Shown here: piece by piece, positions 3,346 to 29,398 of the stretch
How positions within the stretch are numbered: position 1 is the stretch's first letter
Layout: each line of letters starts with the position of its first letter
From: Elusimicrobia bacterium HGW-Elusimicrobia-3
GTDB lineage: Bacteria; Elusimicrobiota; Elusimicrobia; Elusimicrobiales; UBA9959
NCBI GenBank assembly: GCA_002840355.1
Contig: PHAL01000026.1
Coordinates: 1-35,332, forward strand
DNA: 35,332 bases
Direction: 5' to 3'
Program-made: the position numbers and the translations under genes
Notes under the pieces: model-generated
Told to the model about the DNA's origin: nothing
What the model saw: the letters and a program-made list of their open reading frames with translations, nothing else
The model's database searches: none

Positions 3346-4527
3346 ATGAAAGAAGTTTTTATCGCTGAAGGCGTGAGAACCCCCATAGGCAGCTTTTCCG
3401 GCGCGCTGGCGGATATCAGCTCGGTGGAACTGGGCAAGACCGTGGCCAAGGCGCTGCTGGACCGCTCCGGCCTGAAGCCTGAGAACGTAGACGAGGTGGT
3501 GCTGGGCAATATCTACCAGGCCGGCATGAGCCAGAACGTGGCGCGCCAGGTGGAACTGGGCGTGGGCATCCCCAAAGAGAAGACCGCGCTGACGATAAAC
3601 ATGGTGTGCGGTTCCGGCCTGCGGGCCGTGGCGCTGGCCGCGCAGCAGGTGAAATGCGGCGACGCCGAGGTGATCATTGCCGGCGGCACCGAGAGCATGA
3701 CCAACGCGCCGTACCTGCTCAAGAAAGCCCGCGCCGGCTACCGCATGGGCAACGGCGAGCTGGTGGACTCGCTGATCAACGACGGCCTGTGGGACGTTTT
3801 CAATAACTGCCACATGGGCGTCACCGCAGAGAATCTGGCGGCCAAGTACGGCCTCTCCCGCGAGGAGCAGGACAAGTTCGCGGCCGCGTCGCAGAACAAG
3901 GCCGAGGCGGCCCAGAAAGAGAACCGCTTCGCCGACGAGATCGCCCCGGTGATGATCCCGCAGCGCAAGGGCGACCCGGTGGTCTTCGCCCGGGACGAGT
4001 ATCCCAAGGCCGGCGTGACCGCGGAGGGCCTGGCCAAGCTGCGCCCCGCCTTCAAGAAGGACGGCTCCGTGACGGCGGCCAACGCCTCCGGCATCAACGA
4101 CGGCGCGGCCGCCGTGCTGGTGGTCTCCGAAGAGGCGCTGAAGAAATACAACCTCAAGCCGCTGGCGAAGATCGTCTCCTACGGCTGGGCCGGCGTGGAC
4201 CCGTCCATTATGGGCATAGGCCCGGTGGAGGCCGTGCGCCTGGCGCTCAAGCGGGCCGGCTGGTCCCTCAAGGACGTGGAGCTGATAGAGGCCAACGAGG
4301 CCTTCGCCGCGCAGGCCCTGTCGGTGGCCAAGGAGCTCGGTTTCAATATGGATATAGTCAACGTCAACGGCGGCGCGATAGCCCTGGGCCACCCGGTGGG
4401 CTCCTCCGGCGCGCGCATCCTGGTGACGCTGCTGCACGAGATGAAGCGGCGCGGCGCGAAGAAGGGCCTCGCCACGCTGTGCATCGGCGGCGGCATGGGC
4501 ATAGCGATGTGCGTGGAGCGCCAATAA
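3346..4527 (+). CDS. Acetyl-CoA C-acetyltransferase (thiolase)
   Basis: A full-length 393-residue biosynthetic-type thiolase that condenses two acetyl-CoA to acetoacetyl-CoA or runs the reverse cleavage. All catalytic features are present: nucleophile Cys88 in NMVCGSG, the GGTESM loop (113-118), NEAF (Asn317), GHP (His349) and the second catalytic Cys379 in LCIGGGMG. The ATG has an ACGGAGGA ribosome-binding site. No 3-hydroxyacyl-CoA dehydrogenase, polyhydroxyalkanoate or mevalonate gene is adjacent, so the pathway (butyrate, ketone-body, isoprenoid or fatty acid use) is open. The upstream region carries the paired palindromes at 3122-3159. It ends at a strong bidirectional terminator. Confidence 0.93.
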
Positions 4528-4537
4528 GCGCGGTCTG

Positions 4538-4582
4538 ACGATAAAAAAGAGCCCCGGCGAAACCGGGGCTCTTTTTTATCGT
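4538..4582. terminator. Strong bidirectional terminator
   Basis: A perfect 20-bp stem with A-tract and T-tract arms around a GC core (AGAGCCCCGG/CCGGGGCTCT) and a CGAAA loop. It serves the thiolase on the plus strand and the converging small gene on the minus strand. Confidence 0.92.
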
Positions 4583-4589
4583 CCGGATA

Positions 4590-4781
4590 CTAGTCTTCCC
4601 GGTCCGCCGCGGGGCGTGGGGAAAACGGATCCCGCAGCGTTTCCGGCGCGGCCCTGGCGCCTGGGGAGATCAGGATGTCGCCGCTCTCGATGAGCGTGTC
4701 TCCGGAAACCGGCGGCTGCGCGCCGGCCGTCGCTGTCAGGGCCAGGGCCGAAAATACCGTCATGAGCGTCTTTTTGATCAT
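4590..4781 (-). CDS. Small exported protein (63 aa), unknown function
   Basis: The frame is open from an ATG at 4841, but the ATG at 4781 is preferred. It is preceded by AGGGGTG and gives a proper signal peptide (MIKKTLMTVFSALALTATAGA, written as residues 1-21) with cleavage likely before QPP. The mature part is only about 42 residues, acidic and Pro-rich, and includes LRDPFSPRP; a similar RDPF turn occurs in PilP-type pilus lipoproteins, but the similarity is too short to name it. It is transcribed divergently from the gene at 4994, and the operator-like pair at 4900-4937 lies between them. Its coding status is plausible rather than certain. Confidence 0.55.
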   Translation of the reverse strand: MIKKTLMTVFSALALTATAGAQPPVSGDTLIESGDILISPGARAAPETLRDPFSPRPAADRED

Positions 4782-4993: not shown

Positions 4994-6334
4994 ATGAGAC
5001 CGTTACTGTATCTCTTCCTCTGCTGCCTGCCGGGCCTGCCAGCCTCGGCCCAGGAGGATTTTGCCGCCGCGCTGGGCTCCATCCGCCAGGACATGGCGGC
5101 CGCGCAGGATAATACGCGCGTGCAGCGGCCGCTGCCGCCCGCGCCCCTGGCCGAGCGGGTGAACCAGCCCGGTTCGGCCGAGTACCTGTTTGAATTGTAC
5201 GGCCAGGACTTCAACCGGCACGCGGTCTGGCACATGGACCTGCTGTCCCTTTACCGCCGCGGCGGCGCCAACGGCGCCAGGCCCCCGCTGCAGGACGCGC
5301 TGGCCTCGGTACGGGCTCTGAGCGTGCTGGGCGCCGGCGCGCAGCCGCTGGTTTCCGGCGACACGCTCTACTGGCTGCCCAAGGAACTTTCTGCCGTCCT
5401 GAAGTACGCCCCCGACGCCGAGGCGCGCGGGGCCGCGGCGCTGGCGCTGGGCGTGGTGCTGGCGGCCAAGGACGCAGCCGCCGCCCGAGAGGCGCTCGAC
5501 AGCCTGGCCTCCTCCGTGCGCTACGCTTCCGAGGAATTCGAGGTGCGGCGCTTCGCCGTGATGGCGCTGGCCGGCTCCGGCCAGAAATACGCCGTGGAAA
5601 AATTAAAAGCCGCCGCGCGCGCGCTGGCGGCCTCGCACGACTTCATCGGCCGCGGCAAGTTCCGCTACGAGGAGGACGAATCCTCCTGGTCGCTGGAGGC
5701 CTCTATCATAAAGGCTTTCGAGTCCATGCTGCCCGGCCCTGCCGGCACAGAGGCGCTGGCGGCGCTCAAATATTTCGCGCACCTGTACAATTCCACCTGC
5801 GGCAATTTCACCGTCATCAAGCTGCCCGACGACGACGGCATAGACGAGACGCTGCTGGTCAACGCCCGCCTGGCGCTGGCGCAGAACGGCGGCATGACGT
5901 GGCGGCACCTGCGGTCCAACCGGGATTATCCCGAGACCGGCTCGGTGAAGTGCCTGCTGCCGGTGATAAACGACGGCGACCTCTGCGAATTGCGCAAGAC
6001 GGCCGCCACGCTGTTCCGGCAGATACACGGCGACGTGATCTACGCCACCGGCAGCTACATAGAGGGCCGCGCCGACTGCAACGAGCTGATAACCAACAAG
6101 GTGATGCTGGAGTTCTCCAAGATCTACCTGACCGGCCTGGGCACGGGCGCGCTGGTGAAGGGCGCCATCAGCGTTTCGGTCAAAGGCCTGCGGGCGGTGG
6201 CCGGCATACAGCACGCCGCCAAGGTGGCGCAGTACAAGAAGTTCATGGACATGGCCTACGGCTATTACGACCGGGCCGGCCGGATAAAGGGCTACACCGA
6301 GTACATGGCCGCCATGAAGAAGGCCTCGCGCTGA
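4994..6334 (+). CDS. Exported HEAT-repeat-like protein, unknown function
   Basis: A 446-residue protein with a signal peptide (residues 1-19, cleavage after ASA). Residues about 135-215 form Ala/Leu-rich paired helices of the HEAT/armadillo kind (for example ARGAAALALGVVLAA and EVRRFAVMALAGSG), which usually serve as protein-binding scaffolds. The C-terminal half has two spaced Cys pairs and a hydrophobic Gly-rich stretch (about residues 375-400, LTGLGTGALVKGAISVSVKG) that could insert in a membrane. I do not recognise the family. The gene has its own promoter next to the paired palindromes at 4900-4937, no visible ribosome-binding site, and a terminator directly after it, so it appears to be a single-gene unit. 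Confidence 0.8.
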   Translation: MRPLLYLFLCCLPGLPASAQEDFAAALGSIRQDMAAAQDNTRVQRPLPPAPLAERVNQPGSAEYLFELYGQDFNRHAVWHMDLLSLYRRGGANGARPPLQDALASVRALSVLGAGAQPLVSGDTLYWLPKELSAVLKYAPDAEARGAAALALGVVLAAKDAAAAREALDSLASSVRYASEEFEVRRFAVMALAGSGQKYAVEKLKAAARALAASHDFIGRGKFRYEEDESSWSLEASIIKAFESMLPGPAGTEALAALKYFAHLYNSTCGNFTVIKLPDDDGIDETLLVNARLALAQNGGMTWRHLRSNRDYPETGSVKCLLPVINDGDLCELRKTAATLFRQIHGDVIYATGSYIEGRADCNELITNKVMLEFSKIYLTGLGTGALVKGAISVSVKGLRAVAGIQHAAKVAQYKKFMDMAYGYYDRAGRIKGYTEYMAAMKKASR

Positions 6335-13062: not shown

Positions 13063-13120
13063 AAAATATTGGCAAACTCCACGGCGGCATCCGCCAGGAC
13101 CGGAACGCAAAACGCGCTCG

Positions 13121-13196
13121 CGCACACCGTGCGCTCGCTCATCAATCGGGCTCGGCGCTTACGCAAGCCTCGCCCTCATGAAGGTTTTGCTAACCC
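13121..13196. repeat. REP-like palindromic repeat, copy A
   Basis: The region between msbA and the ZIP gene contains CGCACACCGTG, GCGCTTACGCAAG and GGTTTTGCTAACCC in this order. The same landmarks in the same order occur at 28092-28170. The reverse complement of its left two thirds matches 28228-28290 closely, with two near-identical blocks of about 15-16 bases. It contains self-complementary segments. Confidence 0.7.
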
Positions 13197-27128: not shown

Positions 27129-27959
27129 TTAGAGGGCCTTTTCCAATAATAGTTTAGCAAAATTGACGTTGGCGGCGTGGCCGGGGCGCTCGGCCTCTAT
27201 ATAGATATCCTTGAGCGGCCGGCCGGCCAGGGCGAGGTCGCCTATGAGGTCCAGCAGCTTGTGCCGGGCGAATTCGTCGGGGTAGCGCAGGCCGCCCTTG
27301 GCCAGGATCTCTCCCTCGGCTATGACCACGGCGTTGTCCAGCGAGCCGCCCAGCCCCAGGCCGGCCTTCTTCAAGGCCTCGAGCTCGTGCGAGAAGCCGA
27401 ACGTGCGGGCCGGCGCCACGCGGACCAGGTACTCTTCCGGCGACAGCATGAATTCCACGGTCTGCCGGCCCACCAGCTTGTGCGGGTAGTCGTAGGTAAG
27501 TTTTATGAAAACGCAGTCTTTCATCGGCCTGGCGAGGAAACGGATGTCGCCCTTGGCCATCTCGAGCTGGCCGCCGATGGAAAGGGGTTTGCGCTCCTGT
27601 TCCTGTTTTTCCGTGAGACCGGCTTTGTGGAGCGCGGTCGCGAAGGGCAGGGCGGAGCCGTCGGCGGCCGGCGGTTCCTCGCCGGTGATCTCTATGTCCA
27701 GGTCGTCTATGCCCAGCCCCGCGGCGGCGGACAGCAGGTGCTCTACGGTGTAAATGTTGTTCTTGCCGTCGCTGATATTGGTGCCGCGCGCGGTGCCGGC
27801 TATGCGGTCGAGCGTGGCCGGTATCGGTTCGGCGAACAGCGGGCTGAGAAAGCGGTACCCCGTAGCCCCCGCCGCCGGCAGAAAAGTCACCCTGGCAGGC
27901 TTCCCCTTATGCAGGCCGATGCCCTCTATTGTTGTCGAAGATTTGATCGTCGTTCTCAT
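27129..27959 (-). CDS. lpxC: UDP-3-O-acyl-N-acetylglucosamine deacetylase LpxC
   Basis: A 276-residue zinc amidase for the committed step of lipid A synthesis. The zinc ligands of E. coli LpxC (His79, His238, Asp242) correspond to His74 in TVEHLLSA, His233 and Asp237 in FARHKLLDLIGD; the catalytic His265 matches His261 in GHAANV and Glu78 matches Glu73. The protein ends shortly after GHAANV and lacks the long C-terminal tail used for FtsH-mediated turnover in E. coli, so regulation by the PbgA-like protein, if any, would need another signal. No Shine-Dalgarno is visible before the ATG. The 410-base upstream gap with repeats suggests it has its own promoter. Confidence 0.96.
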   Translation of the reverse strand: MRTTIKSSTTIEGIGLHKGKPARVTFLPAAGATGYRFLSPLFAEPIPATLDRIAGTARGTNISDGKNNIYTVEHLLSAAAGLGIDDLDIEITGEEPPAADGSALPFATALHKAGLTEKQEQERKPLSIGGQLEMAKGDIRFLARPMKDCVFIKLTYDYPHKLVGRQTVEFMLSPEEYLVRVAPARTFGFSHELEALKKAGLGLGGSLDNAVVIAEGEILAKGGLRYPDEFARHKLLDLIGDLALAGRPLKDIYIEAERPGHAANVNFAKLLLEKAL

Positions 27960-28091
27960 CGTTAAATTTATTCGCTGAAAGTTTTACTGAGGCCCGCCAA
28001 GGGTACGCCCTCTCCGGGCACGCTGATTTCCCGGCCTGCCACGGTCACAGGGGCCGGCAAAAACAGGGTCACTGCAGTGGCCTACGCCACT

Positions 28092-28170
28092 CGCACACCG
28101 TGCTCGCCCTTCCCCGTCTCGGCCCTCGCGCTTACGCAAGTTCGGGCCTCCGACAGGGTTTTGCCAACCC
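28092..28170 (+). repeat. REP-like repeat, copy B1
   Basis: It shares CGCACACCGTG, CGCGCTTACGCAAG and GGTTTTGC-AACCC with copy A (13121-13196) in the same order and at similar spacing. It ends with a small hairpin GGGTTTTGCCAACCC. Confidence 0.7.
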
Positions 28171-28192
28171 CTATGCCCGCGTCAGGCTGCAA

Positions 28193-28320
28193 GGCACGGC
28201 GAGGGTATGCCTTCGGAGGGGCCTCGCGAGGGCGAGGCTTGCGAAGCGCCGAGCCCGAGTGAAAGAGCGAGGCCACGGTGTGGCCGAGCGTACCCGCAGA
28301 AGGCGTACCCTCGCCGTGCC
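28193..28320. repeat. Long inverted repeat enclosing copy B2
   Basis: Arms of 22 bases at 28193-28214 and 28299-28320 pair with a single mismatch (core GGCACGGCGAGGGTA / TACCCTCGCCGTGCC). They enclose 84 bases that contain the inverted repeat copy B2. A transcript could form a long stem. Confidence 0.75.
28228..28290 (-). repeat. REP-like repeat, copy B2, inverted relative to B1
   Basis: GAGGGCGAGGCTTGCG and AAGCGCCGAGCCCGA match the reverse complement of copy A almost without gap, followed by AGAGCGAG and CACGGTGTG. With B1 it forms an inverted pair like a bacterial interspersed mosaic element. Confidence 0.7.
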
Positions 28321-28369
28321 CGCCGCGCCCGCTCTATGAGCGAGCGGCCGGCATGTTTCCTCCTGCCGT

Positions 28370-29398
28370 CTAGATCCCCAACTGCTTCTTGATCTTGTTG
28401 AGGGCGCGGTGCATTTCGGGGAGGCGGCCGAGCAAAGCTTCTATCTTCATGGCCTGCAGGCGCGGGCGGGCGGTGTGGCCGAAGACTATCTGGTTGGGGC
28501 CCAGGCTGGACATCACGCCGGTCTTGCCCATCACCACGGTGTTCTCGCCGATGGTGAGGTGGTCGGAGACGCCGGCCTGGCCGGCGATGATGACCCCGTC
28601 GCCCACCGCGGTGGAGCCGGCCACCGCGGCCTGCGCCAGGATCAGGCAGTTCTTTCCGAGCCTGACATTGTGCGCGATGTGCACTAAATTGTCGATCTTG
28701 GTGCCGGCGCCGATCACGGTGGTCTCCAGCGCGGCGCGGTCTATGGCGGCGTTGGCTCCGATCTCCACCTTGTCTTCAATGACCACGCGGCCGAGCTGCG
28801 GTATCTTCTCGTGCGTGCCGCGGGGGGAAGTGTAGCCGAAGCCGTCGGAACCTATTACCGTGCCGGCGTGTATTATGACCTCTATCCCGATCTCGCAGGC
28901 GTCCATGATCTTGACGCCGGGGTAAAGGCGGGAGCGGGCCCCCACCCGGGCGTTGCGGCCCACGTAGCACTGCGCGCCTATCACGGCGCCGGTGCCCACC
29001 ACGGCCCCGTCCTCGACAACGGCGCAGGCGCCGATGTGGACGTCCTCGCCGATCTTGGCGGAAGCAGAAACGACGGCCGAGGGATGCGCGCCGGGCGGGG
29101 GCAGCGGGCGCATCTCTTTCTCCACCAGCCGCAGCGCCAGCATGAAAGCGTAGCGCGGGTTCTTGGTATAGACCACGACGCCGGGGAAAGCCTTGAGCGC
29201 CTCCTCGCAGCCGCGGGGCGCCAGCAGGCAGCCGGCCCTCGAGGCCAGCGCGGCGGGCGCCATGGCGGCATCGGCCAGGAAAGCCAGGTCGGCGGGGCCG
29301 GCCAGCTCCAGGGGGGCGGCGGCGAAGAGCGGGGCGGACCCGTCGCCCTGCAGGTCGCCTTCGGCGAGGCGGGCTATGTCGGCGGCGGTCAGTTTCAT
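28370..29398 (-). CDS. lpxD: UDP-3-O-acylglucosamine N-acyltransferase LpxD
   Basis: A 342-residue enzyme that N-acylates UDP-3-O-acylglucosamine, the third step of lipid A synthesis. It has the N-terminal uridine-binding domain (1-100, with VVYTKNPRYAFMLAL), the left-handed beta-helix (about 105-300) and a C-terminal helix. Catalytic His243 lies in NLVHIAHNVRLG (E. coli His239), and GSDGFGYT (183-190) is also typical. Its ATG overlaps the ompH stop (ATGA). The downstream side faces the repeat element. Confidence 0.96.
   Translation of the reverse strand: MKLTAADIARLAEGDLQGDGSAPLFAAAPLELAGPADLAFLADAAMAPAALASRAGCLLAPRGCEEALKAFPGVVVYTKNPRYAFMLALRLVEKEMRPLPPPGAHPSAVVSASAKIGEDVHIGACAVVEDGAVVGTGAVIGAQCYVGRNARVGARSRLYPGVKIMDACEIGIEVIIHAGTVIGSDGFGYTSPRGTHEKIPQLGRVVIEDKVEIGANAAIDRAALETTVIGAGTKIDNLVHIAHNVRLGKNCLILAQAAVAGSTAVGDGVIIAGQAGVSDHLTIGENTVVMGKTGVMSSLGPNQIVFGHTARPRLQAMKIEALLGRLPEMHRALNKIKKQLGI

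Follow-up and report, generated by a model that had tools for sequence, protein, structure and literature searches.

A mosaic of palindromic repeats lies between lpxD and lpxC in an Elusimicrobiota draft genome

Gene setting and contents of the lpxD-lpxC gap

The DNA analysed here ("the window") comes from a draft genome of 2.88 Mb in 95 contigs (G000 below), assigned to Elusimicrobiota through named LpxD relatives. It is 35,332 nt long and carries the gene series bamA-ompH-lpxD-lpxC-fabZ-lpxA-lpxI. The identities of LpxI, LpxA, FabZ, LpxC, LpxD, OmpH and BamA are consistent with Pfam. As the original prediction held, the series is otherwise tight: by ORF coordinates, the genes at every other junction either overlap or lie 3-42 nt apart. 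A gap of 410 nt separates lpxD and lpxC.

This gap is a mosaic of palindromic repeats (Table 1). From lpxD to lpxC, it contains the remnant of a palindrome family we call 'Q', the complete element B2, the complete element B1 with a mini-hairpin nested in it, and a third copy truncated to its 3' end. A complete 'Q' palindrome occupies this junction in both the closest relative, G003 (L042), and G004 (L043). B2 belongs to type I, which has approximately 16 more full-length copies in the genome. In G004 as well, B1 and B2 lie in this tight arrangement, away from the contig with lpxD (L032 on C39; lpxD on C20).

Table 1. Features of the lpxD-lpxC gap and its flanking genes, in window coordinates
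Feature	Coordinates	Strand	Basis and details
lpxD, upstream flanking gene	28370..29398	-	Stop codon ends at 28370; Pfam LpxD and hexapeptide repeats
5' remnant of palindrome family 'Q'	28321..28356	-	By-eye comparison of gap sequences
Element B2, complete, type I	28193..28320	+	Outer arms 28193-28214 and 28299-28320; structured core and covariance-model match 28214-28298 (+)
Element B1, complete, other arm type, same core family	28034..28187	-	Core and covariance-model match 28079-28164 (-); outer arms paired, ending at 28187 and 28034
Mini-hairpin GTGGCGTAGGCCACTGCAGTG, 21 nt, nested within B1	28070..28090	-	Related inserts in other copies; filled/empty comparison L060 vs L056
Third copy, type I, truncated 3' end	27988..28024	-	Complete counterpart in G003 (L042)
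lpxC, downstream flanking gene	27129..27959	-	Pfam LpxC

Because the covariance model matches B1 and B2 on opposite strands, the two are inverted copies of one repeat, as originally predicted. The predicted 22-bp arms around B2 are also borne out: GGCACGGCGAGGGTATGCCTTC and GAAGGCGTACCCTCGCCGTGCC form 21 Watson-Crick pairs and one G.T pair, and the wider inverted repeat (28193-28220 with 28293-28320) is 89% complementary. The interval first proposed for the palindrome, 28092-28320, is real but too short, as B1 continues beyond it, followed by the third copy, and the 'Q' remnant adjoins its other end.

Among lpxD-lpxC gaps, L056 and L060 are a near-perfect empty/filled pair for such a mini-hairpin. 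Mini-hairpins of about 21-25 nt (e.g., GTGGCC-GAA-GGCCAC-TGCAGTG) lie inside copies of the larger element elsewhere as well (L025, L189, L191, L194). The window contains a third copy of the core at 13107-13191 (-), between ZIP-transporter and ABC-transporter genes, and the orthologous site in G003 has a different core with a nested mini-hairpin. Other inverted repeats in the window are a perfect 21-bp one with a 5-nt loop at 4537-4583, directly after an ORF ending at 4527, whose stem contains T and A runs and looks like a bidirectional terminator, and a 36-bp one (4692-4727 with 5333-5368) that is 94% complementary with a separation of 605 nt.

A genus-wide repeat family

We aligned 34 cores to build a covariance model and counted as copies all matches with E<1e-4. 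The model finds 66 matches in this genome and 99 in G025, and a DNA search of this genome gives 68 matching stretches. Overall, the genome has approximately 65 copies, so the gap is not unique sequence. All 32 genus genomes examined contain copies. Among other genera of the taxonomic family, three have many copies and one has single copies; beyond these there are marginal matches only. Rfam contains no family matching the window above the gathering threshold except a tRNA elsewhere in it (a relaxed threshold gives chance matches), and the literature we searched describes no such repeat family for Elusimicrobia.

Every unit consists of a long stem that encloses a conserved core of two hairpins. 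The core is approximately 86 nt and the core with arms approximately 130-150 nt, with an overall range of about 100-190 nt. The core helices covary strongly: 97.1% of helix cells are paired (80.3% when shuffled) and helices hold 57 double changes (21.3 when shuffled). Related sequences can beat shuffles, but versions with the partner slid are also far lower, with covariation of at most 0.037 against 0.358. The ratio of G.T to A.C mismatches, which could in principle show whether the elements act as RNA or as DNA and from which strand, is 147:39 overall, driven by shared fixed wobbles, and 24:15 for the copy-specific part, which does not decide the matter.

The outer 10-20 bp of the stem, outside the conserved inner box, vary between copies and pair within each copy. 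Among pairs of copies with cores at least 96% identical, both arms are shared at 80% in none of 28 here and in 13 of 38 in G025, where the differences between closely related arms are paired or wobble changes.

Placement and pairing of copies

The repeat is strictly intergenic in our data, with none of 109 loci inside a gene. The median distance is 20-34 nt to the facing stop codon versus about 75-79 nt to the next start codon (both results use our own simple codon-usage gene finder). A location just downstream of stop codons is REP-like (Di Nocera and colleagues, PMC3733652). Copies less than 400 nt apart are always arranged minus-then-plus, i.e., 5' to 5' (10/10 here and 24/24 in G025, 34/34 together); beyond these pairs, the closest copies on a contig lie more than 1.8 kb apart. 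Since the orientation of paired copies is fixed, they cannot be counted as independent, and orientation relative to the upstream gene was therefore assessed in single copies. The ratio is 28:11 in this genome and weaker in others, so the bias is clear in this genome's single copies only. This modest bias could hint at an RNA function.

Intergenic location on the 3' side of genes and inverted pairs are what one would expect of REP/BIME/REPIN repeats of the standard kind, moved by a RAYT (TnpA-REP) transposase, and the genome does encode one Y1 transposase. However, the search for a RAYT that the original prediction proposed leads away from this explanation. The Y1 gene has no element or inverted repeats around it, and the 24 loci examined in other genomes that carry its homologues are free of the element. 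Y1 homologues are present in element-free genera, and none is found in G012 or G022 (91-92% complete), each with 29 or more copies of the element; in draft genomes, such an absence is weak evidence alone. The copies also lack a terminal GTAG/CGTC tag: GGTAGG or GGTATG near the 3' arm is found in 5/63 of our genome's copies, 17/40 in G025 and 10/32 others, inside the stem rather than at its end, and no CGTC end was seen by eye in the aligned copies. We therefore consider mobilisation by a RAYT unlikely, and we reject a link to this Y1 gene, which is neither flanked by elements nor distributed like them.

The Y1 gene itself (L151, 1417-2445) is single-copy and widespread in the taxonomic family, and it combines a Y1 (IS200-like) domain with a DnaA-like C-terminal helix-turn-helix.

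Insertion, exchange and flipping between species

Orthologous sites were compared between species in two rounds, with 12 of the 16 sites prepared for one round and 9 of the 13 for the other. At L019 and L022, G003, G004 and G007 all have an empty site: the adjacent genes almost touch and the whole unit is missing, arms included. By parsimony, these are recent insertions in this lineage. Neither arm is present in the empty sites, so we reject copying from the target as their origin at L019 and L022. Allowing up to 2 mismatches, the assembly contains no further match to the L019 arm.

Clean empty sites such as these, together with inverted arms, a length of about 100-190 nt and a lack of coding sequence, would fit a MITE of a DDE-type transposon, with the arms as its terminal inverted repeats. 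However, no target-site duplication is visible at L019 or L022, and outer arms are not conserved between copies despite near-identical cores (the 0/28 pairs above). The core can also be inverted within retained arms, as described below. Taken together, these observations make a MITE unlikely.

Exchange was tabulated at 11 sites occupied in both G000 and G003, with flanks 84-98% identical. Left out were L005/L297 and L010/L300, which have no flank match, and L188/L291, where flanks matched and cores did not. At 9 of the 11 sites, the G003 core resembles a G000 copy from another locus more closely than it resembles its ortholog (e.g., identity of 0.72 to the ortholog vs 1.00 to another copy, and 0.80 vs 0.99), a count that is measured against one relative only, from draft assemblies, and that lumps gene conversion, loss with re-insertion and independent insertion. 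The remaining two sites (L181, L012) are ties. The core is inverted relative to the flanks at 6 of the 11, and at L160, L173 and L191 the two species have almost identical outer arms around a core that is replaced or flipped.

One core subtype has 7 copies here versus 1 in G003. All five of its G000 sites that were examined carry other cores in G003 (the G000 core at L152 is a one-base variant of the subtype). From these sequence comparisons, new core subtypes appear to spread mostly into sites that already hold a copy.

The lpxD-lpxC junction across the genus

The original prediction offered two readings of the gap: an attenuation or mRNA stability element separating bamA-ompH-lpxD from lpxC-lpxI, or simply an insertion. 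In favour of an RNA element specific to this junction, the predicted RNA fold of the gap is strong (-228.9 kcal/mol, z = -7.1, with 0/100 shuffles equally stable), the repeats lie just downstream of lpxD, and many species have some palindrome there. However, the same repeat occurs at more than 50 unrelated sites, there is no intrinsic terminator (GC stem and T run) within 27900-28450, and no promoter-like site was found at lpxD-lpxC.

Comparison with relatives is also against it. In the 26 genus genomes (including this one) whose locus carries both genes, gap length runs from 4 to 434 nt, and the contents are members of this family facing one way or the other, other palindrome families, remnants or, in some, nothing; some relatives have another family there or a copy in the opposite orientation, and in others the gap is just 4-37 nt. 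Since both length and content vary across the genus, an attenuator specific to lpxD-lpxC is, on this sequence evidence, improbable. The proposed comparison of this junction thus favours insertion over conserved unique sequence, in keeping with the empty L019 and L022 sites. A general effect on mRNA, as a modelled 3' hairpin, is possible.

Apart from the repeat family itself, two palindrome families occur at this junction in other species (L042, L043 and L047; L046 and L063). One of them is flipped in G012 (L047), with outer arms that have diverged yet still pair.

Proposed explanation

The reading we prefer, with a probability of roughly 0.72, is that the gap is a mosaic of lineage-specific intergenic palindromic repeats: non-autonomous or relict mobile DNA that acts like BIMEs/REPs. 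The comparisons show that copies insert cleanly at tight gene junctions and are found either singly or as 5'-to-5' pairs. At sites shared by two species, the core differs as if swapped with the cores of other loci, often in flipped orientation, with the flanks and sometimes the outer arms kept. The simplest driver of exchange and flipping would be recombination or template switching between the core's flanking inverted boxes; alternatively, a putative hairpin-acting enzyme could be responsible. We identified no mobilising enzyme for the family. At lpxD-lpxC, the insert is probably tolerated because of its position after one gene's stop codon and before the next gene's start codon. Once transcribed, the hairpin may shield mRNA segments or keep them apart, but the operon presumably does not require it.

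A more specific version is tentative: the repeats may be palindromic docking sites in which the hairpin core is a cassette, replaced in place and in either orientation by cores from other loci, so that the family spreads more by swapping cores at sites it already occupies than by inserting at new ones.

The genus provides a natural set of filled, empty, exchanged and flipped alleles, with which an old question, how REP-like repeats spread and are homogenised, can be traced site by site. There is also a practical caution: intergenic palindromes of this kind should not be taken for gene-specific regulators.

Comparison with known systems

The original description of the element as BIME-like holds for its architecture, its location, its paired inverted palindromes and its many copies. 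Like BIMEs and REPs (PMC3733652), these are high-copy intergenic palindromes, preferentially just 3' of stop codons and often in inverted pairs, with complementary changes in their stems. The label does not extend to a standard REP or REPIN, given the missing tag and RAYT link. The GTAG and CGTC super-families of REPs have units of 20-40 bp, whereas the units here are about 100-190 nt, carry neither tag at their ends, pair in a single orientation and have no RAYT neighbourhood.

REPINs (PMC3116915) are likewise replicating hairpin units with compensatory changes. However, their ends are conserved and their middle is variable, the opposite of this family, in which conservation lies in the core and variation in the outer stem. 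They are also tied to RAYTs, and no RAYT gene neighbours or is associated with this family.

With MITEs, the family shares short length, absence of coding sequence, inverted ends and clean empty sites. It differs from them in that no target duplication was identified (at two filled/empty sites) and in that its conserved parts are inner boxes rather than terminal inverted repeats. The arms are instead copy-specific, and cores are exchanged and inverted inside arms that are retained. The family is therefore distinct from both standard REPs/REPINs and MITEs, and its unusual feature is the exchange of cores in place.
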